A stretch of DNA of 64,000 bases from assembly GCA_019055375.1 (NCBI GenBank), contig JAHQIW010003636.1:248001-312000 (forward strand). Reading direction: 5' to 3'. Positions 5,761-63,840 of this stretch are shown piece by piece. The notes below the pieces were generated by a model. It was not told the origin of the DNA. It saw only the letters and a list, made by a program, of their open reading frames with translations, and ran no database searches. The translations under genes and the position numbers were made by a program. The first letter of the stretch is position 1, and each line of letters begins with the position of its first letter. Source of the DNA: Parelaphostrongylus tenuis (Eukaryota > Nematoda > Chromadorea > Rhabditida > Metastrongylidae).

Positions 5761-6005
5761 AATAATATGCACAATGCTAGATGTGTGAAAATATTTTACC
5801 TTCTCCTAACACTGGAAAGACCAAATTGTGTGCAGTTAGGTTTGCCGAGTACTTCCATAACTCTGCCCAAGTCAGAACATCACATTTATTCTTAGGAAAA
5901 GAAGTAATAGTTTATATTCAAGTGTTTTTTTGAGACCTCGCTCATAACAATATAATTTGTTGATAAATTTTGAGTATTTCACCACTCTGCTGTGGCACTT
6001 CTCAA

Positions 6006-6048
6006 GTGCTAGACAAGTGTTTAGGCCTTTCAGCCTCATCAGTAGCAC
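6006..6048 (-). ncRNA. hammerhead ribozyme motif, one core change
   Basis: Minus strand. Stem I is GTGCTA/TAGCAC, a perfect 6 bp. The core CTGATGA is intact. Stem II is GGCT-GAAA-GGCC with a GNRA-type loop. The self-complementary stem III ACACTTGT is followed by C at the cleavage position (GUC). The only core defect is TAAAC where GAAAC is expected (G12 changed to U), which should strongly reduce activity. Confidence 0.7.
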
Positions 6049-6349
6049 CGTGCCTTTCGTTTTCGCCAATCCCTTGCAAGCGGATATACCCCTACACATG
6101 AAGGAATCGACAACAAAGAGTTACACTACTCTCTCAAGGTGGAAATATCATTTCACATTGCAGAGAACATATTATTATTTGTGTAGTTACAAGGTCACCC
6201 GATATTGCAGTGATTAGCAGTCGATTCTCATGGGTGGTAAATTTGTTATCACCCTTATATTCAACTGTTTTTGAGACGTCGCTCACAACAATATAATTTG
6301 ATACCTTATTTCGAGCCTTTCCGCTATCGCGAAGAAACTTTGAATGCTT

Positions 6350-6386
6350 TGCTGGACAAAGACTTTCCACTAAACTATCAGTAATC
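6350..6386 (-). ncRNA. decayed hammerhead motif
   Basis: It occupies the position, one period away, that matches the 6006 motif. CTGATAG stands in place of CTGATGA and GTC-CAGC at the cleavage end; GAAAC is lost. It is called by position and partial identity only. Confidence 0.4.
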
Positions 6387-6489
6387 ATTCGAAAAGTTTA
6401 ATTTTGAAGAGTTCAGGAATTTATTATTTTCTTTTTGGAGGAACTTTTGACAGCGGTGTAGGCTTCAGGATAAACTGGTGTTTTAGACG

Positions 6490-6930
6490 AATCACGTACC
6501 ATCGCGCGTATTTTTGTAATTAATTTAGAAATTGTTCCTCCGTTCCGCAGAGATTTCTAAGTTTGTTACATTGAAATTGTAGAAGAAACTAAGTTCTACA
6601 GTTTTAGTCCTTTGACTTTTTGTTTTCATGACATATCGCCAAATAAACTCGCTACTAAGCCTAAACCCAAGCTTAGCAGCTCAACTAGAAACAAGAAAAG
6701 TATATGAACGCGTAAAGAAAATCTTCACGCATCAGTGTCACATGTTATATATAGATTTTTTGTTAATGCCAAGAAAAATTCAAAATTGAACAACAAAAGC
6801 CGTGTTTCACATGAACAAAATTTTGTTTCGAGTTCTACAGCGCTCTGAGAAAGCTGTTCTGAAAAAAGTCTATTCTGAATTGTCCGAGATTTGAGCTATC
6901 GATTGATTGATTGCTGACAAACTAGTGAAA
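6490..6930. repeat. AT-rich dispersed repeat (family U)
   Basis: Shares order and short blocks (AATAAACTCGCT, ACAGCGCTCTGAGAAAGC, GAGATTTGAGCTATCGA) with 9160-9550, and more weakly with 57480-57980. No coding potential. Boundaries are approximate. Confidence 0.4.
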
Positions 6931-8267
6931 GTGTTTGTCCAGCAAAAATTATTCCTCAAAAAAACCCCGCCCGATAACTGTATGAACTCAAAAAAACTTA
7001 TATTTGATGTAAATTTACATCTTTGCTCATAAGCTTTTTTTGATTCTAAAAGACCAACTCCACTGAGTTACGTGAGTCCAAAATGTTTCTATCACAGACC
7101 AAATTTCAAGATTTTAAGAATATATCTGATGCGGCACACAATTCAGCGTCATGTTTTTGATTCCAATGTGAGGATGTCGATATCTAACTCAAAATCTTCA
7201 TCGTTATGTCTCCATGTTGTGCGATCCTAATGGAGTATTGTGTTTATTTCCGAGTTTATCGTTTGAGTGTTCTTATGCAAGATTATGTCACTAAAATACG
7301 CAGTCGTTACCCCTTTTGCAATTGTTTTCGTCATCGCAAACTATACAAGAAAGGCGCACAGTGATCGAACTCAATACATTCACGATTTCTATCATAAAGG
7401 GCAAATTACGTAAATTTTGTCCTCTGGATAGACAGCTATCTATAAGAATGGCTACGCCCTATCAGACGACACGATGCTTGTGAAAAGTGTCAGACAATTA
7501 TATAATCTCTGCCATACTGCTGTTTTTGGACAATTTAATTTGAACGTTCATGAGTGGAATTTAGTTTTTACCCGGTCATCCTCAGTGATAATCATACACT
7601 GCGACAGTTTCTCCCGCAACTCGAAAGAGTTTGATCCTCTTTCTCTCGCGGGCAGAACAACAAACTGTAAGTGCGCGCAAAAAAAAACGTTCAACATCTC
7701 AAGGAATCTCCATCTAAATGGATTAAAATTAGCTTAAAAATTTTATATAGAAATACCTTGAACTAACTGCTATAAATTACTAAGCTAATTGAAAAATTAC
7801 ATGTTGTTGTAAACAAGCAAATATTGTATCAAGAACCTGCTGACTGCTCATTAAGAAAATTCATGTAATGTTTGGTGGAGAGCGTAATCTAAGTCGATTT
7901 TGTGAGCTGAGTCTGTAGAATAGTTAGGAATTCTTCAGAGGAGTGTTAGGACATGGGACATCTTTTTATCAGAAAAATGTCTAAAAAGAAAAAAGCTATA
8001 ATTTACTTTGCGGCAGCGTTGAATTCGACTTCGGCTTGTCGTTGCACTTCCGTATCATTTAGTGCTGGATTATTTTTTCGAACCCGATCAATTGATGCAT
8101 TTATGCAGACCTAAAATTTAAGAGCAAATTTGTTGCTTATAACGACTCGTTTTTTATATAAAGAGAAAGTTGAAGCTGAAGAAGGACTGAAGTGAAAGCG
8201 ACGGTTGACACGCTTCTTTCAATCATCACTTGACGTCACCAGGATTGTGCACATCACGTCTTCACAT
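6931..8267. other. no gene seen
   Basis: AT-rich sequence without a recurring repeat that I can identify. An 87-codon ORF at 7474-7737 (+) shows no family features. Confidence 0.45.
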
Positions 8268-8573
8268 TCAGTTACTCAGTAGTACATTGATGAGTTTTTT
8301 GATTTCGTACGGCCCGTCATCACATTTCAATGTGCAAAACTCTGGCTTAGAATTCGCTTTTTCGTGCTCATTGTTCCAGAGGACTTCAAGCACTTCGCTC
8401 TTTGTTGGCCGCTCTTTCAAAAATCTGTAAACTTCATGAACGTCGAAAAACATTGGTCGGGCAAATTTTGCAATTTCGAAGGAAGATGAGTTAAGACGTT
8501 TCAGATGGCGGTCGTCAAGTGATTGGAGAGTGCCGGGAGAGTGTTGCGCCATCACCTTGCTTCCTGGTAGCAT
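8268..8573 (-). CDS. hypothetical ORF, 101 codons
   Basis: This minus-strand ORF has unusually protein-like composition for this window: charged and amphipathic, with segments such as LDDRHLKRLNSSSFEIAKFA and HEVYRFLKERPTKSEVLEVL. A stop codon lies a few codons upstream of the first ATG and the ORF ends with its own TGA, so it could be a single-exon small gene or a last exon. I do not recognise the family and see no signal peptide or membrane segment. It may equally be a remnant of a transposon protein. Confidence 0.3.
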   Translation of the reverse strand: MLPGSKVMAQHSPGTLQSLDDRHLKRLNSSSFEIAKFARPMFFDVHEVYRFLKERPTKSEVLEVLWNNEHEKANSKPEFCTLKCDDGPYEIKKLINVLLSN

Positions 8574-9155: not shown

Positions 9156-9159
9156 GCAG

Positions 9160-10849: not shown

Positions 10850-10953
10850 ATTTTGTAGAGCTGGCTTATTATATGTTCAGTACAGACACCATTTCAGTTA
10901 TATTCTGACAACATATTTCAAGCCTTTCATGAGGTCTGTTATGACACATATAC

Positions 10954-10998
10954 TGTCGAAGACATGTGTTTCGACATTACAGCCTTGTCAGTTGAACA
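10954..10998 (-). ncRNA. hammerhead ribozyme motif, core mutated
   Basis: Minus strand: stem I TGTTCAA/TTCGACA (mostly paired), core CTGACAA (G8 lost; CTGACGA expected), stem II GGCTGTAATGTC, then GAAAC, stem III ACACATGT and C at the cleavage position. Confidence 0.55.
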
Positions 10999-11240
10999 GT
11001 GCCTTACGGTTCAGTCAGTTCCGCAGAGAGTTATCTCCTACATAGAAGAAGCGACGCTGAAATTTGCTGTTAGGTGATAAAGTCACCCAACGGACTGTCT
11101 TGTACAGTCGATTGCTCGTAGTTGGTGAAACGTATATTTCCATACCTTTCTTTTCGACAGTTTGTAAGACCTTCCTTGAAACAACGTAATCTGGTAACAT
11201 ATTTCGAGCCTTTCATGAGGTCTGTTATAATGCCTATAAA

Positions 11241-11281
11241 ATGCAAGACACTGTTTCGGCATTACAGCCACGTCAGAGGCG
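11241..11281 (-). ncRNA. hammerhead ribozyme motif, core mutated
   Basis: Minus strand: CTGACGT (last core A changed to U), stem II GGC-TGTAAT-GCC intact, GAAAC intact, cleavage GTC. The 3' strand of stem I (TTGCAT) is kept but the 5' strand has diverged. Confidence 0.5.
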
Positions 11282-11326
11282 AATGAGGAACATCTTCCGG
11301 CGTAACTGACTGAACCTACAGGTATC

Positions 11327-11368
11327 GTGCAACTGACGTGGCTGTATGCCGAAACACCTGTCTTGCAC
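11327..11368 (+). ncRNA. hammerhead ribozyme motif with perfect stem I
   Basis: Plus strand: stem I GTGCAA/TTGCAC (6 of 6 bp), core CTGACGT (A9 changed to U), stem II GGC-TGTAT-GCC, GAAAC intact, cleavage GTC. Stem I differs at several positions from GCCCGA/TCGGGC in the other subfamily yet still pairs fully. Confidence 0.65.
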
Positions 11369-11440
11369 TGTATAAGAGCCACATCAGATCTCATGAAATG
11401 CTTCAAATATGTCTTAAAATTACGTTGTTTTGAGCGAGGT

Positions 11441-11690
11441 TACAAAAACAGTTGCAATAAAAGTTCTAAAATAATCACACTATCATTGTCTCACGGTGAT
11501 CTCTTTTGTTTTAGAATAATCAACATCACAACGCGACTCTATAATGATCATGGACTAACTAAGATAATGAGCTTAAAGCGCTTTCAAAAGGTCTTATGAG
11601 ATTTTCAGAGGTATGAAGACTAAGCGAGAAAAGTCAACTCTGCCCAAATTGTTGATGAGAAATGGAAAAGTGCGATGTTGCCCCATAGCT
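11441..11690. other. no gene seen
   Basis: Short interval between the retrozyme-like array and the candidate exon. Nothing recognised. Confidence 0.4.
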
Positions 11691-13829: not shown

Positions 13830-15105
13830 ATTTCATAGCCTCGCTTGAGCCCCTACTCGCTAAGCCTTATCAAGCCAATGGCTCGGCACTTTATATTTTA
13901 TTTACCGTACCAACCTCCATCACTTCTATCTATTTTTCTGATGTGTTAATGCAGATTTGTGAAGTGGAACGCTGCCATATCGGCCTGTCTGACAATGCCA
14001 TAGTTAATCTTCTTTCACCACCAACGAAGGTTCTGATAATAACAAAGGCGATTTGGAAGCAGATTTCTCCATTATAATTCTTCGAACAATAGCCAAAGGT
14101 AATTGGCCGGTATAGTCCGCTCTTGTGGAAAAATTGAACGCCTACGAATTTTTTGCTCTTCACGGATTAGTTTCTGATGCCTTTTTTCACTCAGCAAAAC
14201 GATGTCTTCAAATGTTCTCTCGATATCTACTTTGACGGCAAAGTCAGAATGCTAAAGGAAATATTTTTTAAGCCAGAGGGAGGAAATTAAAAAGAGATAA
14301 AACCTACAAGACCATCAGGGTTCTGATAGCGTTGGTATGGACACCCTGTTAAGATCACTCATGTGGTCGTATGAGTTTACGATAGAACTGAAATCTCTAA
14401 TTAAATTAGGCAAACTTCTTCTTACATCTGCTACGATTAGTAGCATCACAATAATCTGCAAGGAATTGACTCAGCTTGCATCAAATTTGTCAAATTTCTT
14501 GCAATAATATGCATAATGCACTTTCGAAATAAGAGATCTAATCATTACCAAAAATCATATCAATGCCTACAATCCTATACAACAAACAACAGTATCAGGG
14601 TTTATATAATTTCCAGAGGGAATATTTCTTAAAATATCATCAGCTAGCATATTTTACTGCAAAGGTGGATCCACCATATTTTGCCAACTTGATACAAAAC
14701 AGCCAACTCAACTCACTGTCATGGTGTTAGCCCTTGATTGTTCGGAAAGAACAAATGCGTAGATCTAAGTGTTGAAATGATTTGATATGGCAAAACAAAC
14801 ATGTAACAAATCTACACCGCTAATCAATTGCTTCGAAATCCAGTTGCGGCTTTCAACAGAATTTTTCCGTAAAACGTGAATTAATTTGAAATATATGGTA
14901 CACTGAAATAAACTGCGCAGATAAGAAATCACTCACGGTCGCATAAGGGAGAGCAATGCCCACTGATAGCAGCTCCACCATAAGGCATATAATGCTACAA
15001 TGGACCTCGAAAATCACTTCCGCGGAGCTACATCAAAGTTTATCAGGAAGGTGAGCTCAACAGCAAATAATCTTGAGGTGTCAACCAACATAGTATAGAT
15101 CTGTT
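13830..15105. other. no gene seen
   Basis: Nothing recognised. The interval contains a few degenerate AT-rich runs and short ORFs only. Confidence 0.45.
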
Positions 15106-15109
15106 CATT

Positions 15110-15660
15110 ATTGACAGCCCGGAAGGCGTGTTTCGACCTTACAGTTTCGTTAGTCGGGCAGAACCCGTCGTCTTTCAATCTTTTCATAGCCAGTCCTCTC
15201 GGGAACCTGCTTTCCCTGCTGAAAGGTATCGAGGAGGAACGCTTTACACTGTATGTCAAGTGAGATTATCACCGAACTTATAGTGTTGTACACTCGATTG
15301 TTCTTTGGGTGGTGTTTTCATGATATTGCACCTTCATTTCGAGTGTTTTCTTAGAACTACGCTCAAATTTCGATAAATCCGTTCATTATTATTTGAGCCA
15401 ACATGTCCTGTGGTCTGGGTATATAAACAACATGGTATACGTGGAGTACCGAAACAGTGACCATGTTCAACGTCAAATTCCGCCGCGATAAAGAATGTTA
15501 ATAACACTGAATTAGTGGGAAGAAAAATGCTATAATTATGGGAGAAGAGAATAAAAGTATTTGATAATTATTACTGAGCCAACATTCCATGTAGTCTGTC
15601 ATACGTGTACAGCCCGATACCAAAAAGAGCCGCGAAGAACAATCGAGTGAAGAACACTGC
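15110..15660 (-). repeat. retrozyme-like repeat copies
   Basis: Read on the minus strand, 15117-15420 is a nearly full unit. It starts with GAGCCAACATG-type sequence (as complement at about 15398-15408), continues through the GAGTGTTTTCTTAGAAC, TATAGTGTTGTACACTCGATTG and GAAAGGTATCGAGGAGGAACG blocks, and ends in a decayed hammerhead. A further partial copy is at 15570-15660. The same blocks recur at 16118-16355, 45690-46610, 48570-49025 and 63610-63840. Confidence 0.65.
15117..15159 (-). ncRNA. hammerhead ribozyme motif, decayed
   Basis: Minus strand: GCCCGA, then CTAACGA (G5 changed), stem II AACTGTAAGGTC, GAAACAC intact; cleavage end changed to CTTC, 3' stem I CCGGGC. Confidence 0.55.
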
Positions 15661-15905: not shown

Positions 15906-16117
15906 AGGCTTGAAAATCTGTGCTACCATGCGGGAAAGATCTAGAACAAAGCCTGTTCCATGATTCCATGGAGAGCACAACGCCTTAAAAAAAGAGAAAT
16001 TTGTCAAAAGTTATCGATGAACCGGCAACACACGCAGTACACAGCATCATTTTCAGAGATTACTAACTTCTTGAACTGCTGACTTTCGGATAGTGTATGA
16101 AACAAATTAGGACATAT

Positions 16118-16355
16118 CTCATAATTATTATTTGAGCCAACATGTCATGTGGTCTGGTAATGGGCTCTTGTACAGCCCGATACAAGTGTTCGACCTTGAA
16201 GTCTCGTCAATCGGGCAGAACCCTTTGTCTTCAAGACTTTTAGCTAATCCTTTCGGGAGCTCTACTCTCCCTACAGAAAGGTAGCAAAGACGAACTGCAA
16301 GTCAAGTGAAACTATCATCGAATTTGCAGTGTTTTACACGCGATTACTCCTTGCT
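16118..16355 (-). repeat. retrozyme-like repeat, partial copy
   Basis: Minus-strand copy spanning the end of one unit (16217-16350), a hammerhead (16175-16216) and the start of the next unit (16118-16174, GAGCCAACATGTCATGTGG on the plus strand). Confidence 0.7.
16175..16216 (-). ncRNA. hammerhead ribozyme motif, two core changes
   Basis: Minus strand: stem I GCCCGA/TCGGGC perfect; core TTGACGA (C3 changed); stem II GACTTCAAGGTC pairs; GAAAC shortened to GAAC. Confidence 0.6.
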
Positions 16356-17392: not shown

Positions 17393-17815
17393 TTGTTCCT
17401 TGAAACACGCGATAGCAGAGGTGTCGGCGGCGTTGGCGTCCTCGTTAAATCGAATTTGACAGTGAACATCGATTTGTTTGAACAACTAACAACCCGCATC
17501 GGACGATTACGGTTGGAACGATGTCGTTCTATGTCCGCTTTGACCATCTTCGTTGTTTACGCACCAACATCAAGCTATAATGAAGACGAAATCGAAGCGT
17601 TCTATATGGACCTCGAAAAACTCTTCAGAGAAGATCATACATTTTTCAAGGTCATTGTCGGAGATTTCAATGCAAAAATTGGACCTAGAAGAACGTCTGA
17701 AGAGCGTCACATAGGGACTTACGGACCTAGAAGAACGTCTGAAGAGCGTCACATAGGGACTTACGGACCTAGAAGAACTTCTGAAGAGCGTCACATAGGG
17801 ACTAGAATGGAATGA
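17393..17815 (+). pseudogene. RTE endonuclease domain, open 140-codon segment
   Basis: This is the longest open part of the RTE copy. It holds the APE-like core: VGGVGVLV near residue 12, the VVYAPTSS strand near residue 54 and the GDFNAKIGPRR motif with the catalytic Asp-Asn near residue 90. The segment after GDFNAKI is abnormal: a 14-residue unit (GPRRTSEERHIGTY) is present three times in a row instead of once. The frame then runs into a stop; the following part (WNEQGE.LSEFIMTT) continues in another frame. It is therefore a broken gene. Confidence 0.85.
17681..17806 (+). repeat. in-frame 42-bp tandem triplication
   Basis: Three units of 42 bp start at 17681, 17723 and 17765. Units 1 and 2 are identical as read; unit 3 differs at a few bases (ACTTCTG for ACGTCTG, and its end). 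The length is a multiple of three, so the endonuclease frame is kept through the array. Confidence 0.95.
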
Positions 17816-25334: not shown

Positions 25335-26515
25335 ATCAAATAGAGCAACGGTATATAGGTGATTGCTTCATTGCCCGTTCCACGCAAGAGTAAATGGACA
25401 AATGTTTTGAAATCTTGAACTGACAGTCAGAGCATATAAAATTTACGCGAGAAAGTCCAAACGGGAGCTGGCTTTCATTCTTAAACATCCAAGTAAGCTT
25501 CTGGATAGTGGATATAGTATAAAATTGTATCGAAAACCAATAACAAAAACATTTCAATTAATCGCCTTCTTCACATCCTTCACACATGAAAAAATCGCTG
25601 ATTAAAAGCATGTTCGTACGGCTAAAAATGTGTGCACAGGAGAAGAGGAAAGAAACGAATCATTAGACTTGGCACGAAAAATTGCCATTTCCAACGGCTA
25701 CAAAACATTTGCCACTCGGAAATATTCAACAAGTGGAATAGGCCCCAAAAGAACAATACTCCACACCTGAATAGTTCCCTTCAAACTGGAATTTATATCA
25801 AACGAAATCAGCAGCGCGGTTAAAAGGCGCCTAAAAAGATGTGGTCTTGCAAATTCCGTGTAGTTATCGAAATCCCACCTCCCCCCTACGTCATCAGCTG
25901 ATCCGCAATAGGCTTTGTGATCGATTGTGCAACACCGAAAATTATATAATGTGCGCTAACGGAAAGGAGGGGGATTGTATGAGATCGGGCGCAAGTAAGA
26001 CAGGTGGGGAAGAATACATAGGCGAAACGGGTAGACCACTTTTCATCCGCATAGAAGAACATATAGATAGCAATCAATAGATAAAACCAAATTTTTGGGT
26101 TTATATAGGGCACAAAAACACAACAACAAAGATTTTTATGTGACTGTCACGATCATAGCGCAGGAATAGAAAACATCCAAGCGCAAAACTCTTGAGGCAT
26201 TTTGGATAAACGCCAAAAACTCCGAAATGAGCAGAAAGGATGAATGCGTCACGATTACACGAAATCTTGCGCTCTTTTCCCATTTGATCTTTTAACCTGA
26301 CCTAGGCAGCACATGAATTAGATCCTCCGAGTCATTCAAACAGACTAATACTATATACGCGCAGGCTCTGAAAGAGGCGGGTCGCCGACAGTCAGTCAAA
26401 CAACTACGATTACTTTGCCAACATCGCGTCAGATAATCAAGATAAGTTTTCTCGATTTTCATATATCAATTAATTATGCTGAGGTTATAGAAAGTCGAAC
26501 TTTTGGAAAGTTTTT
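25335..26515 (+). mobile_element. Penelope-like element (PLE), 3' part, decayed
   Basis: Reading with frameshifts, this is the 3' part of a PLE protein. The RT catalytic box appears as RYIGDCF (25349-25369; the first of the two box aspartates is Gly). The RT palm/thumb follows (HIKFTRE.PNGSWLSFLNIQ, then DSGYSIKLYRKPITK), then ESLDLARKIAISNGYKTF, the Cys-rich linker (RNRLCDRLCNTENYIMC) and the GIY-YIG endonuclease (GGEEYIGETGRPLFIRIEEH, then LEAFWINAKNSEMSRKDECV). The GIY half of the motif is deleted here. A decayed hammerhead lies at 26364-26396 in the 3' untranslated part, and the end (to about 26515) matches the outer flank of the inverted pair at 32.9 kb. PLEs move by target-primed reverse transcription. 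Confidence 0.85.
26364..26396 (+). ncRNA. PLE-type hammerhead motif, decayed
   Basis: GGCT, then CTGAAAGA (one base inserted in the core), stem II GGCGGGTCGCC intact, but GACAGTC where GAAACGTC stands in the copies at 32965 and 33717. Expected inactive. Confidence 0.55.
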
Positions 26516-29579: not shown

Positions 29580-30580
29580 ATGAAGTATAACTAAAGAGAC
29601 TTTATAAACGTTTTGGCAAGGGAAATGCCCAGTTGTCTCCAGATTCTAACTAATTATCAAAATTCAGTAGTACTAAATACCGACTTTCCTTAAACTTCGG
29701 CTTTAGAAATTAATGATTAATCTTTTGGTGAATAAGCGAAAGCACGAAACTGATTTAAAAAAAAAATATTGTTTTTTCCAGCTGATGTTTCAACGAGTCC
29801 GTCTCCTTCAAAGCCGATCAATTCAAGTCGATTCTGTGGAATGCATCGCGTACAGTACCATTGCTGACAAACATTTCATTGTTTCGCAATTGCTTTGGTG
29901 TGCCTCAACCGAAAATAGTCTTATTGAAGTCTCTCCTATCAGTTACCACTATCTGCCGAAGATTGAACTCTCTTCAATGACAATAAACATTCGGATTTCA
30001 TTACATAATGACCACACTGGAGCGCTCCTCTTAAGGAATTCGTTCAGCTCCCTGCAGAAAATGGCCGCTGTCTGCAAACGTTAAAAACTGTCTTGTTCGC
30101 ATATTGGCCTAGCAGGTCTACCATAACTGTGGACTTTCTCCTCACGTCTTAGTGGATTTATCAATGAGATTGCTCATGAACCGATAAACATGGGGTGACC
30201 CATTCACTTCTAAAGACAGTAAATATCCACAGGTATCGACACTTATCGGTGGTGATATGACTGACTGAGATTCTACCACTATTTTGATATATAATCAACG
30301 AGGATCAAGCTGTAGTGAGAGCCTCAAAGCCTGCTGACTGATTTATGTATACGAGCACCTCATGAGGAATTATTTCCACCTAGACGTACTCTGCGCCTTT
30401 TCCAATCGCGAAGTGTTGCGTTGTGATTTCCGCCGCAACCTGTTTGATGTGAACACAGAAAGTTGTCTCTATGCAAAAAGTTCATCGGAACTATTGGAAA
30501 TGCTACAATGAATAAGAAGGACCGTATTAGAAAACAAAACATTCGACAGTTTTCATTGATTAACTGCCATATGATAACAT
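29580..30580. other. no recognised gene; one 123-codon ORF
   Basis: The ORF at 29713-30084 (+) is preceded by TTTTTTCCAG at 29781, so its later part (FQRVRLLQSRSIQVDSVE ...) could be an exon. I do not recognise the protein and see no partner exon. Confidence 0.35.
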
Positions 30581-30595
30581 ACTATGGTACTTACA

Positions 30596-30641
30596 CAGTG
30601 TAAGACACGTGTTTCGGCATTACAGCCTAGCCAATTGTACG
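30596..30641 (-). ncRNA. hammerhead motif, decayed
   Basis: Minus strand: TTGGCTA stands where CTGACGA is expected; stem II GGC-TGTAAT-GCC, GAAACACGTGT and the cleavage GTC are intact. Stem I no longer pairs well. Confidence 0.5.
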
Positions 30642-31029
30642 GTGAATTTCGGTTTAGTCAGTTTATTATCAAAAAAATTTATTCTCAGCTGAAAAAGTAG
30701 AAAAAGTACTCAATATTTCTTTTTTCTTTCGTGCTGCTCTTCGAGGAAAATTTTCCACGCTTAAAAACCGTTGTACCATGGTTATCACTTAGAAGCAAAA
30801 CAAAGGTGACGAAGATAAGCCTGTATAGCACAAAAAAGTAACCTAGCAGTACTGTATGCCCATTTCAAGAATAACGCATTATCTCTTCGAAAAAAAGTGT
30901 AGATGAGCGAACATGGTATTCTGTATGCAACTGGAATAGCTTTGAAAAACAACAGTACTGTTCGTGAATTCATCTCTGTACTTTTGGAAACTGAGCCATG
31001 CACTTGGTCTGCTATGTGCACTTATACAG

Positions 31030-31076
31030 TGTAATAATACACGTGTTTCGGCCTTGCATCCTCGTCAGCTGAACGG
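31030..31076 (-). ncRNA. hammerhead motif with intact catalytic core
   Basis: Minus strand: CTGACGA, GAAAC and cleavage GTA all intact; stem II GGAT-GCAA-GGCC has two outer pairs and a GNRA-type loop but a mismatch inside. Stem I is weak (only the pairs next to the core form). Confidence 0.55.
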
Positions 31077-31226
31077 TGCTTTTTGTCTGAGGCAATCCCT
31101 TTTGTTGGAGAGGCCTCTTACATAGGGGAACCGCAGACGTAAATTTACACACGCTGTCAAGAGATAAACATCACCAAACGGGCAGTATTATACGCTCGAT
31201 TACACTTGGCTGGTAATCGTGAAATG

Positions 31227-31269
31227 AAAGAACTGACAAGGCTGCAAGAACAAGACTCAGGTATTGCAC
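31227..31269 (+). ncRNA. hammerhead motif, decayed
   Basis: Plus strand, inverted relative to the previous one: CTGACAA, GGCTGCAAGAAC, AAGACTC, then GTA and TTGCAC. Core and stem II are broken. Confidence 0.4.
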
Positions 31270-31440
31270 TGTATAAGTGCCCGTACCAGATCATATGCAC
31301 TGCTCAAAATTAATTAGCAGGCATATTGAAGTCTTAGCGTGGTTTTGAGAAAACACTCAAAGCGAATGGTATAAAAATTCAACTGTATGAGTTAACATCA
31401 CACTGGTAAACCTACTCAATGTACCTTAATTAGGCACATA

Positions 31441-32860: not shown

Positions 32861-32964
32861 AGTTCGACTTTTTATAAACCTCGCATAAATTAATTGTCAT
32901 ATGAAAAGCGAGAAACTTATCTTGATTAGCTGACGCGAGGTTGGTAAATTAGTCGTAGAAGTTC

Positions 32965-32999
32965 GGCTGACGTTTCGGCGACCCGCCTTCTTCAGAGCC
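32965..32999 (-). ncRNA. PLE hammerhead ribozyme, core intact
   Basis: Minus strand: stem I GGCT/AGCC, core CTGAAGA, one extra A, stem II GGCG-GGT-CGCC, GAA, self-complementary ACGT as a minimal stem III, and C at the cleavage position. Such short-stem-III hammerheads are thought to work as dimers. Confidence 0.75.
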
Positions 33000-33716
33000 T
33001 GGGCGTATGTCGTATTAGACTATTTGAATGATTTGAATGGTCTTATTTATATGCTGCCTAGGTCAAGTTAGAAGATCAAATGAAGAAAGGGCGCGAGATC
33101 TCGTGTGATGGTGACGCACTCGTCCTTCCGATTTATTTCGGGATTATGGGCGTTTATCCAAAATGCCTCAAGAGTCTTGCGCGTTGATGTTTTGATTCCT
33201 GCGCTAGGATTGTGACAGTCACATCAAAATCGTTGTTGTTGTGTTTTTGTGCCCTATGTAAACTAAAGGTTTGGCTTTATCTATTTTAGATTTACTATCT
33301 AGATGTTCTTTCATGCGGATCGGGCACAATTTATTTACTAACATGTAAAACATGCGGGGAAGAATATATAGGCGAAAAGGGTAGACCACTTTTCATCCGC
33401 ATAAAAGAACATTTAGATAGTAAATCTAAAATAGATAAAGCCAAACCTTTAGGTTTACATAGGGCACAAAAACACAACAACAACGATTTTGATGTGACTA
33501 TCACAATCCTGGCGCAGGAATCAAAAACATCAACGCGCAGACTCTTGAGGCATTTTGGATAAACGCCCATAATCCCGAAATGAATCGGAAGGACGAGTGC
33601 GTCACCATCACACGAGATCTCGCGCCCTTTCTTCATTTGATCTTCTAACTTGACCTAGGCAGCATATAAATAAGACCATTCAAATCATTCAAATAGTCTA
33701 ATACGACATACGCCCA

Positions 33717-33751
33717 GGCTCTGAAGAAGGCGGGTCGCCGAAACGTCAGCC
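33717..33751 (+). ncRNA. PLE hammerhead ribozyme, core intact
   Basis: Plus strand, same sequence as 32965-32999: GGCT at 33717-33720, CTGAAGA 33721-33727, stem II 33729-33739, GAA 33740-33742, ACGT 33743-33746, cleavage C 33747, AGCC 33748-33751. Confidence 0.78.
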
Positions 33752-33837
33752 GAACTTCTACGACTAATTTACCAACCTCGCGTCAGCTAATCAAGATAAG
33801 TTGTCTCGATGTTTGATAAGAATATCTTACGGTTGTG

Positions 33838-38450: not shown

Positions 38451-38730
38451 CCGCTGCTTGAAAGAGCTTCAGCCACTTTGTTTTCGCTCTTAATTTCTTT
38501 CTATTTCTCCACATTTACTTCTAGTCTCCTCCTGTCTTCATTTCTCATTGATACAAGCTATCAGACAGCAAGTCGCAGGATCTATTATCGATTGACTTCG
38601 ACATAGATCAGAAAATTCCATGTTTTTCTTGCACCTAATATGGGATGAGGAGACATTTCACGGACTTTTCCGTTTATGTTGACTATTTTGTCATGCATTT
38701 GAGTTTTTGTTTGTATTACCGCTTAGACTG

Positions 38731-38954
38731 GCTTCTTGCAGTTATTTTGATATATAACACTTATACATTTGTTTTGAGATGGAATTGTCCCGAGAGCAAA
38801 AACGATTATTGATGCTACACGACTATCACTTGAGTTTAAGTGCTGCTGTGGGACGCAACGATACTCGCGCGGCATCAACAGTCGTTTTCCTCTCGGGACA
38901 ATTCCATCTTAGAATAAATGTAAAGTGTTTTATATTAAAATAACTGCAATAAGC
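38731..38954. repeat. foldback element, arms about 84 bp
   Basis: Left arm 38731-38815 (GCTTCTTGCAGTTATTTTG ... GAATTGTCCCGAGAGCAA) is repeated inverted at 38872-38954 (CCTCTCGGGACAATTCCATC ... TAACTGCAATAAGC). About 56 bp of loop separate them. The inner 40 bp of the arms are almost perfect. No ORF. Confidence 0.85.
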
Positions 38955-38959
38955 TGCTC

Positions 38960-39635
38960 TAAACGATAGCGAAAGCAAGAACTTAAACGCACGAAAAGTA
39001 ACACAAGAACGAAGAAGTCCGGAAAATTTCTTGCCAACTCATCAACATCGTGCTGGCTGAAAAACAAAACACACAATTATCAACCAGCCGTCAGATAAAT
39101 ATATCATTTCACACGAAAAGTTCTCTTTTGGCGAATGCGAACGGATGAGTGATCCGTAGCAATGTGCCAACTTTCGGTAAGTTGTAGGTAATGACTGTCC
39201 TCTCGAAAGCTTTCGTCCTAACGAATGGAAACCTTTCTGAAGCCCTTGAGCAGTTGCAGAATTTCCAAAGATGAAATTTCCATCGTGGAGATCAAAGGAA
39301 CATTGTTTGAAGTGGGACTGCCACCACTGGGATCTGCTTCTTACACCATTCTGAAGCTGTTGATGTCTATCACAGTTTCCTTTCTGTACAGGGATCGCTC
39401 TGTCATTCTGAGGTGAATCTCAGTCACAATACAACAAACAATAAAACTGACAGTTTGCCTCCTTTGATGAAGAATTCTGGAAACGTGTTGTAGCTTTGTT
39501 ATCTCAGTGTTCTAGAGAAAATCACGCCACCCGATTAGCACTTGACTTGCCCGCGAGAAGAGAGGAGTTGGTTGATTTCCACACAATAAATAGTCTGCTA
39601 CGAATGATTCCACTGATTTCTGACTGAGCTACTTC
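38960..39635. other. no gene seen
   Basis: A 63-codon ORF at 39225-39416 has no features. No repeat recognised. Confidence 0.4.
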
Positions 39636-39639: not shown

Positions 39640-39895
39640 TAACGGTTCACTTCCGCGGACCCTAATTGGCATGTCCGCCAACGTCGGAACGACTCTACCT
39701 TCCTCTGCCCCAATTGGTCGCCGACTGCAGTACTGCTTTTCATTGAAGGACCCAGTCCAAAACCTAGCTGCGGGTCTTGCAACGGAAAGCAGTACTGTGG
39801 TCGACGTACTCATCGGAACAGAGGAGGCGTAGTCGTTCCCACGCTAGCAAACACGCCCAGTTAGTGTCCGCGGATGTCAACCGGTTACCCGTTTG
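39640..39895. repeat. GC-rich palindromic repeat (family W)
   Basis: Ends are inverted (GGTTCACTTCCGCGGAC at 39644 and GTCCGCGGATGTCAACCGG at about 39867). The inner arms pair around GCAGTACTGCTTTTC / GAAAGCAGTACTG. A second copy with the same order is at 54645-54900. A minus ORF of 115 codons overlapping it is not supported. Confidence 0.7.
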
Positions 39896-45685: not shown

Positions 45686-45851
45686 ACTAAGAGTCGGCGA
45701 ATGTTTACAGTGAATGTCAAGCGGAATTATCACTGAACATAATTTTCGTTTCGAGTGTTTTCTTAAAGCCACAGCTCAAATTTCAGTATGCCTGGCAAAC
45801 ATTTTTGAGCCACGCATGTCAGTGGTCTGTCAAAGAGGGCTGACTTATAGA

Positions 45852-45893
45852 GCCCCATACACGTGTTTCGATCTTGGGATCTCGTCAGTCGGC
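45852..45893 (-). ncRNA. hammerhead motif, core intact
   Basis: Minus strand: core CTGACGA, stem II GATC-CCAA-GATC perfect, GAAAC, stem III ACACGTGT, cleavage GTA: all intact. Stem I (GCCGA / TGGGGC) has lost one base on the 5' side and pairs imperfectly. Confidence 0.65.
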
Positions 45894-46259
45894 AGTTACC
45901 CTTTCTCGCCTTTTGCCAATCCTGTGTGGGTGCCGCAGTCCCCACACTAAGAGTTAAAGCCAACGAACATTTTACACTCTATGTCCAGTGAAATTATCAC
46001 CGAACACAGACCTCTGACATGCGTGGCTCAAAAATGATTACCAGGCATATTGAAATTTGAGCAGTGATCTCAAGAAAACACTCGAAACGAAAATCATGAT
46101 GCGTTGAATATAGTAGCCACAAGAAATCGAGTGTACAACACTCTGTGCTCGGTGATAATTTCACTGGACCACGGAGTCTGAAACGTTCGTCGTCACTAAC
46201 TCTTAGTGTGGGGACTGGAGCACCCACGCAGGATTGGCAAAAGACGAGAAAGGGTAACT

Positions 46260-46301
46260 GCCGAATGACGAGATCGCAAGATCGAAACACATCTATAGGG
46301 C
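46260..46301 (+). ncRNA. hammerhead motif, one core change
   Basis: Plus strand: GCCGA, core ATGACGA (C3 changed), stem II GATC-GCAA-GATC perfect with GNRA loop, GAAAC intact, ACACATCT then A, TAGGGC. Confidence 0.6.
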
Positions 46302-46497
46302 TCTATAAGTCAGCCCTCTTTGACAGGCCACTGAAATGCGTGGCTCAGAAATGATTACCAGACATATCACTGAACATTCATCACTGAAATTATCACTGAA
46401 CATTATGCTTGACATACAGTGTGAGATGTTCGTCGTCGCCCTCTCTTAGTATAGGGGCTGAGCGCCCCGAGACGATTGGCTAAGGAGGAAGGGTACC

Positions 46498-46541
46498 GCC
46501 CGACTGATGAGACCGTCAGTACTGAAGCACTTGTATACTGC
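46498..46541 (+). ncRNA. hammerhead motif, stem II broken
   Basis: Plus strand: GCCCGA and CTGATGA intact, then GACCGTCAGTACTGAAGC where GACCGTAAGGTCGAAAC is expected; cleavage end GTA followed by TACTGC. Confidence 0.5.
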
Positions 46542-46610
46542 TCTATAAGTAAGGCCATTTAACAGACCACATGCTATGCTGGCTCAAATAATAATTACGT
46601 GACGAAGAGA

Positions 46611-48500: not shown

Positions 48501-48677
48501 TCTTGCTTCCTAGCATCGCCTTTAGCAGAAGCGTACATAATTTTCGTTCGAAGAATAATGGTACAATTATGCCTTTATTCCGAGTGTTTTATCAAGACCA
48601 CGTTCAAATTTCAATAGATCTCTCCATTATTATTTGAGCCAACATGTCATGTGGGTCCGGTAATGGGCTCTTATACA

Positions 48678-48720
48678 GCCAGATACACTTGATTCGACCT
48701 TACGGTCTCGTCACTCTGGC
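48678..48720 (-). ncRNA. hammerhead motif with compensatory stem I
   Basis: Minus strand: stem I GCCAGA/TCTGGC, perfect 6 bp and a paired change from GCCCGA/TCGGGC. Core GTGACGA (C3 changed); stem II GACC-GTAA-GGTC perfect; GAATC for GAAAC; cleavage GTA. Confidence 0.65.
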
Positions 48721-48921
48721 AAAACTCGTCATCTTTCAATTTTTTTGTGGCTAATCCTCTCAGGAGCCTCCTTTCTTTACAGAGAGGTATCAAAGACGAA
48801 CGATCTACACTGTGAAGTTTACTATCTACACAGGTGAAAATATCACTGAACTTACAGTGTTTTACACACGATTGCTCTTTTGTTGGTATTTCTATTGTGT
48901 TATACCTTTTTTCAAGATTCT

Positions 48922-48964
48922 GCCAGACTGACGAGACTGTAAGGTCGAAACACGTGTATCGGGC
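48922..48964 (+). ncRNA. hammerhead ribozyme, all catalytic residues present
   Basis: Plus strand: stem I GCCAGA/TCGGGC (one A-G mismatch), CTGACGA, stem II GACT-GTAA-GGTC (one U-G pair, GNRA loop), GAAAC, self-complementary stem III ACACGTGT, cleavage GTA. It is the copy in this family most likely to self-cleave. Confidence 0.8.
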
Positions 48965-49183
48965 TGTACGAGAGCCCATTACCAGACCACATGAAATATT
49001 GGCTCAAGTGATAATGAAGAGATGCCAGGACCGACTATCTATTAACCTCGGCATAGTTTGAATAAATGAATATCTTCTTCTGTTTAGCCGCTCGGAGTTG
49101 TTATTGGTATTATTTTTTGAATATCAGTGAAGCATATAACAGTACAGTTAATAATTCAGCATTAATATTACGACAGTCGTGAT

Positions 49184-59400: not shown

Positions 59401-62400
59401 CCGCTGCTTCTCGTTATAGTATAAATCTCATCAAGTATAAAACAAAATCTATACAAGTAAATCTTATAAATATGTATCTATAAGTGTTAATAAAGTCGAG
59501 GAATGTTTACAACTTTTTCATAGAATCTATCAAGCTGATAATGTATGCGATGTGCCGTCTATGGTAATCGACTACAATTCATTCATGTGTGCTGCTGGTC
59601 GTCCTCGTGAAGCATACGGATCGAACAGCTATGGCTTCCACAAGTGTATAAGTGGGTAATTCTCCATTGAGATTTTCGACAAGTATATAGCAATAGGAAA
59701 TAAGAAAGTGGACATTGCCACAATTAATTTGAAAAAGGTCCGATTTTGAGGAAAACCATTAGTAGGTTTCAGTGTGGTGATGTGTGTGTGAGGTGATCTT
59801 TGTGATCAAAGAACCACTTGGTTCGGTTTGTTCACCATTCCATTCCTCAGAAATAGGGCCTTCCTTATCTATCCGATCATTCAGCATTTTCGATGAGCAG
59901 ATGTGCGAGGTGTTTAATAATAAAATTAATTGAATACAACTCGGGATAGTGAAGTAACTGATGTCTCCTTGGCATCGCCTTCTTGAGAGCCTGGAAAGGT
60001 AAAATTGGTTCGCATTCTAAGCAAATACTTCTATTACCTGAAGGATCAAAAGCTATCGGCGTCGATCAATCTGACGGATGAGCCATGCATTCGTCTTTAG
60101 ATTTAAATTCGTTTGAGGTGACTGAATGCATATCTGGCCTTTACAATGACTCGCGGTGGCCTCTCGCTCTATCGAGTCAGTACTGCTTATCCTCCGAGAC
60201 AGGTCAGGGACCAGTTTGGCACCGATTTACCGACCCCGGAGGTGTGGATGGCTTGGTGAGCCATGGGTGCGAGATTGAACCATTGACCTCCTGTGCGACT
60301 CAGGGCACCTCTAACCATTGCTCATGCACCCCTTCTTTACATGCAGGAAAATATTTGACTTGGTAGAATGCGGGTCAATTTAACCTACTCAGACCTGAAG
60401 AAGGGCGCTACCACTAAAATGACAGCCATTATTTTACTGTACTGAGTTGTACCCAATGAATTTTGCTATTAGTTCGTTCTATAAGATTTAATTCTCAACG
60501 GTAAACATCAAATACATAAGCCAAAAGTAAGTAAAACTGCATGATCATATTGTGATCCAGTTGTGCATTTTCTTACTAACATTTTGGCTTGCAAATTGCC
60601 TAAACTTGCTTCAATGGTGCTGGATTGAGAATAAATTCGCTTTTTACTCATAAAACGAATGGTGCCCAGGTTAAATGCTAGTGAAGCGGCGCGCAGGTTT
60701 GATGGCGCTTGGGGCGATGATACGATTGAAGAGAAGACGGCTAGGAAGTGGTTCGCTTACAGAGCTGGAGGGAACAATCTGCAGGATTATTCGCGCTGGG
60801 GTCGTCTACAGGAAGCTCCATTATTCCTGCGCGCCGCTTCTCCAGCACTTTCCCCTGCGCGCCATTTGTGAATGAATAGCAAGCAAATTTGTTCCCAAGA
60901 TAGTTCCATTTCGAAGCAAGTACAGATAAGTTGAAACCAAAATGTTCGCAAGAACTGCGCAGTTGAATGATACCAGAATCGTGCAATTTTGTTTACTCTG
61001 GTTTATAAGTTTTGGAGTTTATTGCTCAAGTGCCAAGACTACATGAGCATACCGCACCTCATATGAAAACCTCACATCTGCTCATCTAGAAAAGAAAGGA
61101 GAAAAACACTGAATCATTCTTTTTTATGTTGAGTTCAGTAGATAGTGGCCCTGGGTATTCGTTAAGTGTTCGCTCACATTTCTGCATTCTTTCTTTTTTT
61201 CGTTTCTTTCTTCGTGAAGAGAGAAATTTTTCAGCGTCATTTGATTGTATCATCCTGCGCGACGAAAGTCCAACTATCATTGCAATCGATTCAGAGGGTG
61301 AGATGTATTCAACAACTGTAAATACCAGCAGTAAGTATTGATTCTATGTACTTCAAAGATTTCACTAATTTTTCCAGTATTTCCAATCAACGGAAATTCT
61401 CTAATTAACCGCTTTTTTAGTTAGCCGGTGATATGATGTTATAATTATATATCCAATAGGTTGAGTGTTTATGCAGAACTTTCAACCTCAGCGGGACGAA
61501 ACCGCATTTCACTCTGTCCGCAGACGTTTGCTGTACAATAGTTCGGTATATCCCAATATCTGTCATCGCAGCCTGAATCAAAGCCGATATGTACTTCTCT
61601 GACCAGACTGTTACTTCCTGGTTGCTAACGGGTTCGATAACTTGTGTCACAGAAAGAGTAATAGCAGAACAGGGACCCACATTAGTGCAATCGGTTGCGA
61701 GCGTTCCCCAGAAAGGTTGAATTGTGCGTTCGATTCATTCTGAGGTTGCAAGTTTTCCATATCGTTCAACATCATTGAATCATTCAATATTTGACAATTG
61801 ACGAAGAATTCTCGATCAGGTAACACCGCTTTCACCCTGGACGCGCCCGCTAATCCTCCATCATGTTTGCCATGCGATCCTACTGATATTCGAATCGTGG
61901 ATCATCCTATGAATGACGTCAGGTTTTGTGAGTCGTTGTGTTCTCGGATCCTTCCCACAACATCTTTATTTTTTACAGCTGTTTCTCAGTTTTTGCCATA
62001 CTATCAAGCAGATAGTGTGATGTAGCTTTATGGTGGCAGTTTCCTGATGAGCAGTCAGGCCATAGGTATATACTGTTTTTTATCTCTATTTTCATCATTT
62101 TCTCGCGAGTTTCTCTGTTTAGCTTATTTCTTCACGGCAACTGCAACTATCCAAAAGTACCAGTTGGAATTTATGTGCCTCTGACTTTGAATTTACTGTT
62201 CTTGTTGCAAGCGACACAGCTGTACTACACATAGACTTGTCACCTTGGCTCCATAAGTATTTCATGATGCCTCGATACAAGGTTAGGAATTCTTGTACGT
62301 TAATACTCTTTTAACCTTTTGGAATTGCTTGTATTCAAAAAGGTACATGATTTTTTTGGAGGACTTTTCACTGGAAAAGGAAATTTTTTTCTTAGTCCTT

Positions 62401-62927
62401 TTAGTGATTGTTTCTAAAGCTTAAATCTCCATGATTTCAGCAATGTGATTGGTTTTCTTTAAAAGCCTTTGTTTTAATGTGTTCTGGAAGCGAAAGATAA
62501 TGATACGATTAACACTCGGTTTGCTTGATTGCCGGCTTAGTTCTGTGGATGCTTTTGGCTGGCCTCTTGGTAGTCATTTCGATAGCTCATGCCTCGACGA
62601 TTTCGAAGCAATGTTTGGTTTTTGAAAAGGGCTCCATATAGCGCTGTAAAGAGCGAAGAGACAAGATTACGTCTCATCCTCGGAGTTTTCTTCGTAATCA
62701 TGAATCCTACAAAAGTATATGTAAATGTGTATGTAGATATATATATATATATAGTGTGCAATGTATATATATATTCAATACGTGTGCATCCATGTACATA
62801 TGTGCACTGTGTATGAATACACATATAAGTATATACGTATATATATATATATATATATATGTATGCATATATACATATGAATTTATGCATATATATACAT
62901 ATGTATATATAAATATATATATGATCA

Positions 62928-62984
<57 letters not shown>

Positions 62985-63594
62985 CACAAGCATGTGATCG
63001 TACAGAGAAAATTTGAGGTATCGCGTAGCACAAAAACTCAAAGGTTTTTTCTAAAATAGAGGAAAAATGTAATTAAATATTGAACATTGCGCACCGCTTG
63101 GGAATCACGCTGCGCGATCGATCAGTGCCGTTCACAGAGGGTTAAAATGCTAACCTGTCTACATTACATCATTCGTTTGTTTAGTTCGGAAAAAGGCAGC
63201 ACTCCAACTTCGGAAGACTCGATAGTTCGTGAATTGATGTCGCTGTCGGACTATGGAGCTGATGGATTCTCTGCCTCTTGTTCTTCTGCTCAGGATCGAG
63301 TGTTAGGGTTAATATGCAGATCAACGAATCCTCGGGAAACAACAACTATGTTCATTGCCTGTAGCTCAAAGCCTCCTTTATTAACTACATTTCTGAAGTA
63401 CGAGTTTTTTTTAGAATCCTTTTTTTTTGCATTATCTTTTTTTACGTGTATTCCTATATTTATAGACTGCAAATGCATGACCCTCAATGGACTACCCGTG
63501 GCGCGTCGGAGATTACAGAAGATATCAGGCCATCGTTGAATGAGAAGGTTCTAGATAGTATACTATCTAATAGGAAGAATCTACCTCCTGTAAG
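56480..63594 (+). CDS. NUP88: NUP88-like nucleoporin, multi-exon, continues past window
   Basis: Homologue of NUP88, a component of the cytoplasmic face of the nuclear pore that works with NUP214 in export. Exons read: 56480-56641 (start [23 protein letters not shown]), 58657-58835 ([20 protein letters not shown]), 58899-59045 ([22 protein letters not shown]), 59524-59655 ([12 protein letters not shown] ... [10 protein letters not shown]), 61134-61165 (short, inferred), 61235-61330 ([20 protein letters not shown]), 62164-62281 ([20 protein letters not shown]), 63185-63397 ([17 protein letters not shown]) and 63466-63594 ([19 protein letters not shown]). Phases agree for exons 1-6 and for the last pair; exons are unresolved between 61331-62163 and 62282-63184. 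The order follows the NUP88 beta-propeller; the C-terminal coiled coil would lie beyond the window. Introns hold two SINEs, a mariner piece and TIR repeats. C. elegans has a NUP88 relative (I believe npp-24). Confidence 0.82.
56700..57410. repeat. TIR family V element in NUP88-like intron 1
   Basis: Left arm 56705-56830 (GACGAGAACTTTTTACAGG ... GGCCGGTTTTCAAAAAGACC), inverted right arm 57290-57405 (AGCGTTGTAAAAACGTCCTTCG ... AACACTCCTATGAAGA). The interior includes GTGCTTTTCGTGATTCCAGCG as at 15705. A 145-codon ORF inside (56786-57223) is not supported. Confidence 0.65.
57480..57980. repeat. AT-rich dispersed repeat (family U) in intron 1
   Basis: GAGCGCTCTAAGAAGCCCTTCT and CGAGATTTATGCTATCGAATGA blocks resemble 6490-6930 and 9160-9550. 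Boundaries uncertain. Confidence 0.35.
58110..58410 (+). repeat. possible second tRNA-derived SINE
   Basis: TGGCTGGGTGG at about 58128 resembles an A box and GCGTTCAACTCC at about 58169 a B box, 40 bp apart. The unit ends in ACGAAACAAATAAA near 58400. Only one copy is in the window, so this rests on the promoter-like boxes alone. Confidence 0.3.
59082..59350 (+). repeat. tRNA-derived SINE in NUP88-like intron
   Basis: B box GGTTCACTCC at 59131-59140, body GGAGGATACAGCACTGACT and GCCAGATATGTATACAGTCGC, tail GCATCCCTCAGGGATTAGTC ... AAGGGCTTCATTTT. Lies in the intron between exons ending 59045 and starting 59524, same strand as the gene. Confidence 0.8.
60047..60332 (-). repeat. tRNA-derived SINE in NUP88-like intron, antisense
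   Basis: Complement carries GGTGCATGAGCAATGGTTAGAGG (A-box region), GGTTCAATCTC (B box, 60271-60281 complement), GGCCACCGCGAGTCATTG, and the tail. Well preserved. A 93-codon plus ORF across it is a shadow. Confidence 0.85.
60655..60860 (+). mobile_element. mariner HTH relic in NUP88-like intron
   Basis: The frame reads [20 protein letters not shown] then [20 protein letters not shown], the paired-type DNA-binding start of a mariner transposase (typical pattern AARxI..xxGEDTxxExTARxWF..F). The linker SGRP motif is already lost and no catalytic domain follows. Terminal repeats were not identified. Confidence 0.65.
61379..62163. other. unresolved part of the NUP88-like gene
   Basis: One or more exons should lie here. 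A candidate is around 61815-61920, with [20 protein letters not shown]. Long minus ORFs (61417-61680; 61647-61835, the latter ending in [11 protein letters not shown]) overlap on the other strand and may be chance. Confidence 0.3.
62340..62640. repeat. TIR family V, diverged arm
   Basis: TTAGTGATTGTTTCTAAAGCTTAAATCTCC followed by TTGGTTTTCTTTAAAAGCC resembles the arm at 56745-56820 in the same orientation. Decayed. Confidence 0.4.
62735..62980. repeat. (TA)n-rich microsatellite with ATGCATA/ACATATG interruptions
   Basis: Alternating purine-pyrimidine sequence (TATATA, GTATACGTATA, CATATATACATATG) ending in about 60 bp of pure (TA)n at 62931-62979. Long ORFs rich in Tyr-Ile on both strands are artefacts of the repeat. 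Confidence 0.9.
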
Positions 63595-63609
63595 GTGAGT
63601 AACTCTTGT

Positions 63610-63840
63610 CTCTTTCCTTCGAGTGCTTTATTAAGACCACGCTCAAATTTCAATAAATCCTTTCATTATTATTTGAGCCAACTTGTCATGTGATCTGGTA
63701 AGGGTTCTTGTACAGCCCGATACACGTGTTTCTTCTTTACAGACTCGTCAGTCGGGCAGACGAAACACGTGTATCGGGCTGTACAAGAGCCCTTACCAGA
63801 CCATATGACAAGTTGGCTCAAGTAATGATGAAAGAATTAA
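63610..63840. repeat. retrozyme-like repeat, near-perfect foldback
   Basis: The arm 63665-63731 (ATTATTTGAGCCAACTTGTC ... GATACACGTGTTTC) is repeated inverted at 63761-63828 (GAAACACGTGTATCGGGC ... GACAAGTTGGCTCAAGTAAT) around a spacer of about 29 bp. It lies in the intron after the last NUP88-like exon seen here. Confidence 0.85.
63715..63757 (-). ncRNA. hammerhead motif, core intact, stem II weakened
   Basis: Minus strand: stem I GCCCGA/TCGGGC perfect; CTGACGA; stem II GTCT-GTAA-AGAA with its first pair lost; GAAAC; stem III ACACGTGT; cleavage GTA. Confidence 0.7.

Follow-up and report, generated by a model that had tools for sequence, protein, structure and literature searches.

A window of 64,000 nucleotides (G000:C2366:248001-312000), analysed here within its host genome of 481.5 Mb (5105 contigs), contains a hammerhead ribozyme motif that recurs in the copies of a non-coding repeat. 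These copies probably belong to a large family of metazoan-type retrozymes, that is, non-autonomous retrotransposons of about 290-321 nt carrying a type I hammerhead, which would be moved by the Penelope-like elements (PLEs) of the same genome. The insertions are mostly head-to-head pairs, the two outer ends usually differ, one being about 63 nt and the other about 114 nt beyond the ribozyme cut, and many insertions are flanked by duplications of 10-17 bp. An original prediction, made from the letters of the window, had proposed a retrozyme-like family with about sixteen hammerheads in a strongylid nematode; the arrangement of copies head to head, their two fixed ends and the PLE partner, a remnant of which lies within the window, go beyond it.

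The motif was searched for with a covariance model (R2) made from 41 hammerhead regions elsewhere in the genome, containing no row from the window and run with filters off; because these regions were collected by similarity to the copy at 48.6 kb, they represent other copies rather than an independent family. Over the window, R2 gave 17 matches at E ≤ 1, 15 of them with E ≤ 0.0024. Ten sites lie on the minus strand (5985, 10935, 11222, 15101, 16154, 30578, 31008, 45829, 48657 and 63695) and six on the plus strand (11317, 31216, 46249, 46488, 48912 and 63723), the weakest being 11222 with E 0.026, while the 17th match (19685, minus strand, E 0.73) was dismissed as noise. The same 16 sites were recovered by model R1, 11 rows of which come from the window. 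Each of the eight places listed in the original prediction has an R2 match and the total agrees with its count, so the motif itself is confirmed, with the restriction that the copy at 63723 is only half a hammerhead, beginning at GAAAC, and that a piece at 15.56-15.62 kb lacks the core. In four of the 16 copies the core is exact at every tested pattern nucleotide (31008, 45829 and 63694 on the minus strand, 48912 on the plus strand). The pattern CTGANGA-N(4-30)-GAAAC occurs six times exactly in the window compared with 1.29 expected, a number reached in none of 100 shuffles; four of these matches belong to the retrozyme family and two (32972, minus; 33721, plus) to the Penelope remnant.

At the Rfam gathering threshold nothing was matched over the window, and RF00008 at E ≤ 10 gave two matches there (31.8 and 21.5 bits), both under the cut-off of 48.5. 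A lack of covariance-model hits above threshold had been named beforehand as grounds for abandoning the prediction, and strictly this is what the Rfam cut-offs returned in the window, but younger copies elsewhere in the genome do pass RF00163 (Hammerhead type I; 34.9 bits against a cut-off of 34), at seven sites in three (L051, L082 and L094) of the eight loci given to it. Locus L009 falls slightly under this cut-off (32.8 bits), and nothing is listed at E ≤ 0.1 in L004, L027, L077 and L081. Genome-wide, the pattern CTGANGA-N12-GAAACACGTGT has 9,698 matches and its reversal none, and an exact 39-mer of the young subfamily is found 1,334 times, again with no occurrence of the reversed sequence. 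A further type of hammerhead-like sequence, distinct from the present family in having a longer stem II rich in GC and a stem III with CCGGTGTA or CGTGTGTA, was seen on the minus strand at about 1140 in L001 and about 2675 in L006.

The ribozyme is a type I hammerhead with a conserved core and covarying stems. In order, the copies show GGGUUCU as stem Ib, GCCCGA as stem Ia, CUGACGA, GACU-GUAA-GGUC as stem II, GAA, AC-ACGU-GU as stem III, an A, the cut, UCGGGC, a bulge (UGUACA) and AGAGCCC. Pairing was scored in an alignment (A1) of 52 copies, 51 of them distinct, made up of 48 of 56 full matches and four decayed window copies, with L011 and L030 omitted twice each as duplicates and L018:2779, L021:1539, L023:1932 and L031 as truncated. 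In A1, 86.3% of 962 cells are paired, compared with 25-54% when the partners are slid by 1-3 columns, and 26 cells are altered on both sides (8-22 when slid, 6.8 when shuffled). The test on stem II, whose twelve letters the genome pattern leaves unconstrained, is more independent: among the 100 matches listed of the 9,698, its four pairs are formed in 92.5% of cells, whereas 2000 shuffles gave a mean of 75.5% and a maximum of 80.2%. At the second of these pairs, 39 matches have A-U, 37 U-A and 14 G-C. Base-pair-preserving change among the copies, whose lack had also been named beforehand as grounds for abandoning the prediction, is seen in both sets. A consensus fold of 21 long arms did not support the structure (covariation term 0.01; 3 of 34 pairs changed on both sides); the linear alignment interrupts the circle.

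The unit length, taken as the distance between successive hammerheads on the same strand, is 290 nt in the window (10.9-11.3 kb) and 314, 316, 318, 320 or 321 nt in other cases, same-strand neighbours elsewhere being mostly 314-323 nt apart and 337 nt in one case. The GC content is 41-46%, and no window open reading frame (ORF) of at least 110 aa overlaps the listed insertions, in keeping with the claim that the units have no ORF of their own; at 290-321 nt they are too short to encode a reverse transcriptase (RT) and a GIY-YIG domain. Folded as circles, five real units reach -68 to -95 kcal/mol, and four of them fold more stably than every one of 100 dinucleotide shuffles, with z from -4.1 to -5.1, which the window unit (z -1.8) does not. 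Non-coding and mostly with strong predicted self-pairing, the units fit the metazoan non-LTR (long terminal repeat) retrozymes, which are described, in the relevant passages of the two papers, as having units of about 170-400 nt and a type I hammerhead in which stem III has 2 bp and a tetraloop (PMC7229834; PMC7761336). As far as those descriptions go, the likeness extends to this form of stem III, the unit size, the low GC content, the lack of an ORF, the strong predicted self-pairing, duplications longer than those of plants and the presence of PLEs in the same genome. Metazoan retrozymes are described there as head-to-tail tandems, in contrast to the prevailing head-to-head pairs and two fixed outer ends found here, and their circular RNA has been demonstrated, whereas the circle of the present units is a proposed one. 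The retrozyme-like reading put forward originally therefore holds, given type I hammerheads, non-coding units of about 300 nt, in many cases with duplications of 10-17 bp, and a nematode host, but its attribution of type I retrozymes to plants as well as invertebrates stands only for the latter, as plant retrozymes, in the portion of PMC7229834 that concerns them, carry type III. The plant LTR retrozymes are likewise non-coding, hammerhead-bearing and non-autonomous, and differ, according to the corresponding sections, in their type III hammerhead, a length of about 600-1000 bp, an LTR, a primer binding site, a polypurine tract, 4-bp duplications and Ty3-Gypsy-like ends (PMC7229834; PMC7761336).

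That the host is a nematode follows from the presence of the spliced-leader (SL1) 26-mer, which we take to be a nematode marker, in 20 exact genome copies and the absence of its reversal. It is very likely a strongylid, as had been predicted, because the strongest named relatives of the PLE protein are strongylid (Ancylostoma, Necator, Haemonchus, Nippostrongylus, Heligmosomoides and Angiostrongylus), with weaker ones in Caenorhabditis and Gnathostoma.

The orientation of neighbouring hammerheads was counted in several sets. Less than 600 bp apart, the first 100 of the 9,698 genome places include 11 head-to-head, 4 same-strand and 1 tail-to-tail pairs, and the first 100 of the 1,334 young places include 16, 8 and 0, respectively, with three head-to-head pairs common to both (one on contig C3, two on C23). 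In 54 loci and the window, partly chosen by similarity to a head-to-head copy, the counts at up to 500 bp are 39, 9 and 3; one search covered 54 of the 64 loci, and the end mapping, duplication scoring and partner ranking omit ten loci, which are duplicates or the window's own. Head-to-tail tandems exist, accounting for 4 of the 16 pairs in the first listing and 8 of the 24 in the young one and including an array of 2.7 units in L094, but are fewer than head-to-head pairs; 27 single-orientation elements also occur.

The 3' ends of 117 arms fall mainly into two classes. The first, from unit position 45 to 80 with a median of 63, holds 46 of them and the second, from 95 to 135 with a median of 114, holds 52, with 19 elsewhere, whereas the 5' (inner) ends are scattered over the unit; many outer ends have an AAAGG-like sequence in common. 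Among 38 head-to-head elements, drawn from the window, from the young set and from loci selected by the pattern after omission of six duplicates, 24 have one end of each class, two have both ends in the first class, two have both in the second, and ten have at least one unclassified end. In the set chosen by similarity, 16 of 18 head-to-head elements have one end per class and two have an unclassified end. Duplications flanking the insertion score at least 10 in 17 of 65 elements, compared with 0.05 expected from mismatched flanks; they are 10-17 bp long, and in 14 of the 17 neither mapped end is more than 10 nt away. They are frequent at young loci, being found in 13 of the 14 that were selected for at least two matches (L082-L095) and in two of six consecutive single places (L096-L101), 15 of 20 together. 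The young head-to-head element L090 (G000:C217:47100-48000), both arms of which have second-class ends, departs from the one-end-each arrangement, no duplication being found for it, and in L085 (G000:C57:56250-57900) the plus arm ends at unit 18, outside both classes, with a 10-bp duplication nonetheless.

The same genome harbors PLEs with this signature. Of 1723 candidate places, 150 were scored for a GIY-YIG domain, and every one of them exceeded the cut-off (frames of up to 902 aa), and the 893-aa PLE frames contain RVT_1 and a C-terminal GIY-YIG. GIY-YIG matches within 5 kb of each other form 20 head-to-head, 2 same-strand and 0 tail-to-tail pairs. In five PLE pairs, fetched from these 20 for being pairs, the inverted arms are 98.4-99.8% identical and every arm carries a minimal hammerhead, CTGAAGA-AGGCGAACTGCC-GAAAC-GTC. 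One arm of each pair ends at +60 to +66 and the other at +101 to +110 after the cut (5/5), and an exact 12-bp duplication flanks four of the five, the fifth (11 of 12) being no better than its control. In PLE insertions a tail on one of the inverted pseudo-LTRs (pLTRs) and a most frequent head-to-head layout have been described, and the PLE RT is reported to start at two adjacent internal sites and to extend both target strands, in the passages that treat insertion (PMC3846280; PMC11167929). The retrozyme insertions display these Penelope-type features, namely head-to-head pairs, two alternative 3' ends, a tail on one arm and duplications. They also share with PLEs that bear minimal hammerheads a ribozyme shortly upstream of the end, duplications of comparable kind (about 8-12 bp in PLEs) and a distance of about 40-50 nt between the alternative ends (published tail 30-40 bp), as far as the relevant parts of these two papers go. 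Unlike the units, which are non-coding and have a full type I hammerhead, PLEs encode RT and GIY-YIG and their hammerhead lacks stem III. Because the PLEs of this genome bear the same head-to-head joint, end distances and duplications, we infer that their machinery moves the retrozymes.

Several results weigh against this interpretation or against parts of it. The difference in end class in 24 of 28 fully classified elements departs from one half with a one-sided binomial probability of 9e-5, but the class limits were set only after the ends had been seen. Pairs with changes on both sides number 9 of 19 in A1 compared with 5.5 when shuffled (20 of 500 shuffles reach 9), yet a slide of -2 gives 12, so that this single measure does not discriminate, and single hammerheads, when folded, adopted other folds that did not support the structure (z 0.16, -1.70, -0.85 and -0.55). 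Among loci picked for their resemblance to the copy at 48.6 kb, many arms seemed to span exactly one lap of a circle, but this peak is gone in the others, where 7 of 86 classified arms are within 15 nt of the unit length compared with 9 and 9 in the adjoining bands; as there is no one-unit peak in the set not chosen by similarity, arm lengths lend no support to a circular template. A common template for both arms was dropped as a line of evidence: partner arms often do not match each other best, the partner being ranked first in 10 of 50 cases (1 expected) with a median rank of 11 of 49. Finally, BLAST found no similarity between unit and PLE, the sole match being a retrozyme that adjoins the PLE of L079.

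This last result also speaks against the proposal that the copies are internally deleted and decayed pieces of PLEs (pLTR derivatives) and no separate family, which we regard as unlikely. The layout, end spacing and duplications are common to both kinds of element, and there is a hint of a faint in-register resemblance over the stretch from the hammerhead to the second end: in a full-circle comparison with two complete PLE 3' regions, 9 of 12 comparisons keep register and the first three of 316 ranks are taken by registers 6-8, where relatedness of the units among themselves, and of the PLEs, limits the independence of the comparisons. Single PLE-retrozyme comparisons gave shuffle fractions of 0.04-0.32 and in one case 0.90, and with two partial PLE 3' regions (12 comparisons) the antisense scores are about equally high. 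The hammerheads moreover differ, since the units have stem III with a loop and a long stem I and the PLEs have no stem III, and the 314-323 nt units occur in tandem with no PLE coding sequence found inside.

Movement of elements resembling short interspersed nuclear elements by an RTE-like long interspersed nuclear element (LINE) would also account for duplications of 10-17 bp, which suit target-primed reverse transcription, and twin priming yields inverted 5' parts as well; LINE fragments are present in the window (a weak endonuclease match at 17393-17815, under the cut-off). Insertions made by twin priming have a fixed 3' end, but their internal start is random. Of the 38 elements, by contrast, 28 have both outer ends within the fixed classes, and in 24 of the 28 the classes differ, as in the five PLEs; on this comparison of retrozyme with PLE ends, the explanation is improbable. 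Still less credible is a foldback DNA transposon or miniature inverted-repeat transposable element with a chance hammerhead-like sequence in its inverted repeats: the palindromic layout and the AAAGG-like outer ends would suit it, but a constant duplication length and a fixed structure between inverted repeats are absent, as duplications vary from 10 to 17 bp and the inner ends take many positions in the unit, some copies are in tandem or in a single orientation, and the stems covary.

For retrozymes moved by PLEs, the following pathway is likely. Transcripts would be cut by the hammerhead, as the core and covarying stems suggest, and the unit would be closed into a self-paired circle, for which the strong predicted pairing is the basis. 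The RT/GIY-YIG protein of a PLE would then take the retrozyme RNA and cut both target strands, and reverse transcription would start within the RNA once for each target strand, to judge from the mapped ends about 63 nt beyond the cleavage site in one case and about 114 nt in the other. Both cDNAs would be joined head to head, and repair would leave the 10-17 bp duplications. More generally, we lean towards the idea that animal retrozymes live off PLEs, their RNA mimicking the hammerhead-to-tail geometry of PLE RNA so that a two-sided complex installs a head-to-head pair.

A review names autonomous PLEs or Terminons as 'likely candidates' for the mobilisation of animal retrozymes, on the grounds that the genomes analysed contain both (PMC7761336). 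The insertion scars described here themselves match those of PLEs in the joint, in alternating ends at nearly equal distances from the cut and in comparable duplication lengths, which makes the question of mobilisation testable with a 320-nt RNA and purified protein. If animal retrozymes do live off PLEs, the enzyme that spreads them, until now proposed on the basis of co-occurrence, would be known, and the two-site start of Penelope would have a natural record of thousands of events. As far as the literature was searched, the nematode host and the insertion signature tying animal retrozymes to PLEs are new. Nematodes are outside the animal groups named in the relevant sections of PMC7229834 and PMC7761336, and the string 'nematod' is absent from the main texts of these papers and of PMC3846280 and PMC3088659, while the earlier PLE-hammerhead papers PMC4209133 and PMC5785218 may mention nematodes. 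The 9,698 exact cores are of the same order as the hammerhead numbers given in the genome counts of PMC7229834 for mussel (about 5000) and coral (more than 6000), which were counted differently.

In the window, head-to-head retrozyme insertions lie at 48566-49023 (hammerheads 48657-48730, minus, and 48912-48985, plus, with exact core; outer ends at unit 115 and 63; no clear duplication) and at 63616-63837 (63694-63767, minus, exact core, and the half hammerhead from the GAAAC at about 63761, plus; outer ends at unit 109 and 64). The latter is flanked by a target-site duplication (score 12), with TAACTCTTGTCTCTTT at 63600-63615 and TAACTCTTGTCCCTTT, with one mismatch, at 63838-63853, both given on the plus strand. 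The insertion at 45738-46598 has a minus hammerhead with exact core (45829-45904) that points away from two plus hammerheads (46249-46324 and 46488-46565), its outer ends being at unit 120 and 63. At 10901-11473, two minus hammerheads 290 nt apart (10934-11007 and 11224-11294) point away from a plus hammerhead (11317-11389), as seen with R1, R2 and the unit map. A composite of retrozyme pieces at 30578-31382 comprises 30578-30650 (minus), 31008-31084 (minus, exact core) and 31216-31290 (plus, R2 E 0.0024). Minus-strand copies were identified at 15104-15443 (hammerhead 15104-15169, core altered, R2 E 1.2e-8, unit map) and 16103-16353 (hammerhead 16154-16226, two pattern positions altered, 3' end at unit 63-76, R2 E 3.7e-22), and a minus-strand hammerhead region at 5985-6058 has one altered pattern position (R2 E 1.1e-10) and further unit sequence at 6218-6321 on the same strand.

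The Penelope-like remnant is a head-to-head palindrome at 32897-33821 with a 91.8% inverted self-match and the minimal hammerhead CTGAAGA..GCC-GAAAC-GTC at 32995 (minus) and 33721 (plus); no flanking duplication was found for it (score 7), and a second stretch (25992-26505) has 83% similarity to it. Imperfect palindromes at 38651-39031, 39643-39883 and 60516-61006 have inverted self-matches of 74, 71 and 67%, and R2 finds no hammerhead in them. Rfam also gave microRNA matches (33270-33445; 62.7-63.0 kb), in what appear to be a palindrome and TA repeats. The LINE-endonuclease-like ORF at 17393-17815 (Exo_endo_phos_2, E 0.0012, under the cut-off) ends in an in-frame 42-bp tandem repeat of 2.9 copies (17681-17803).

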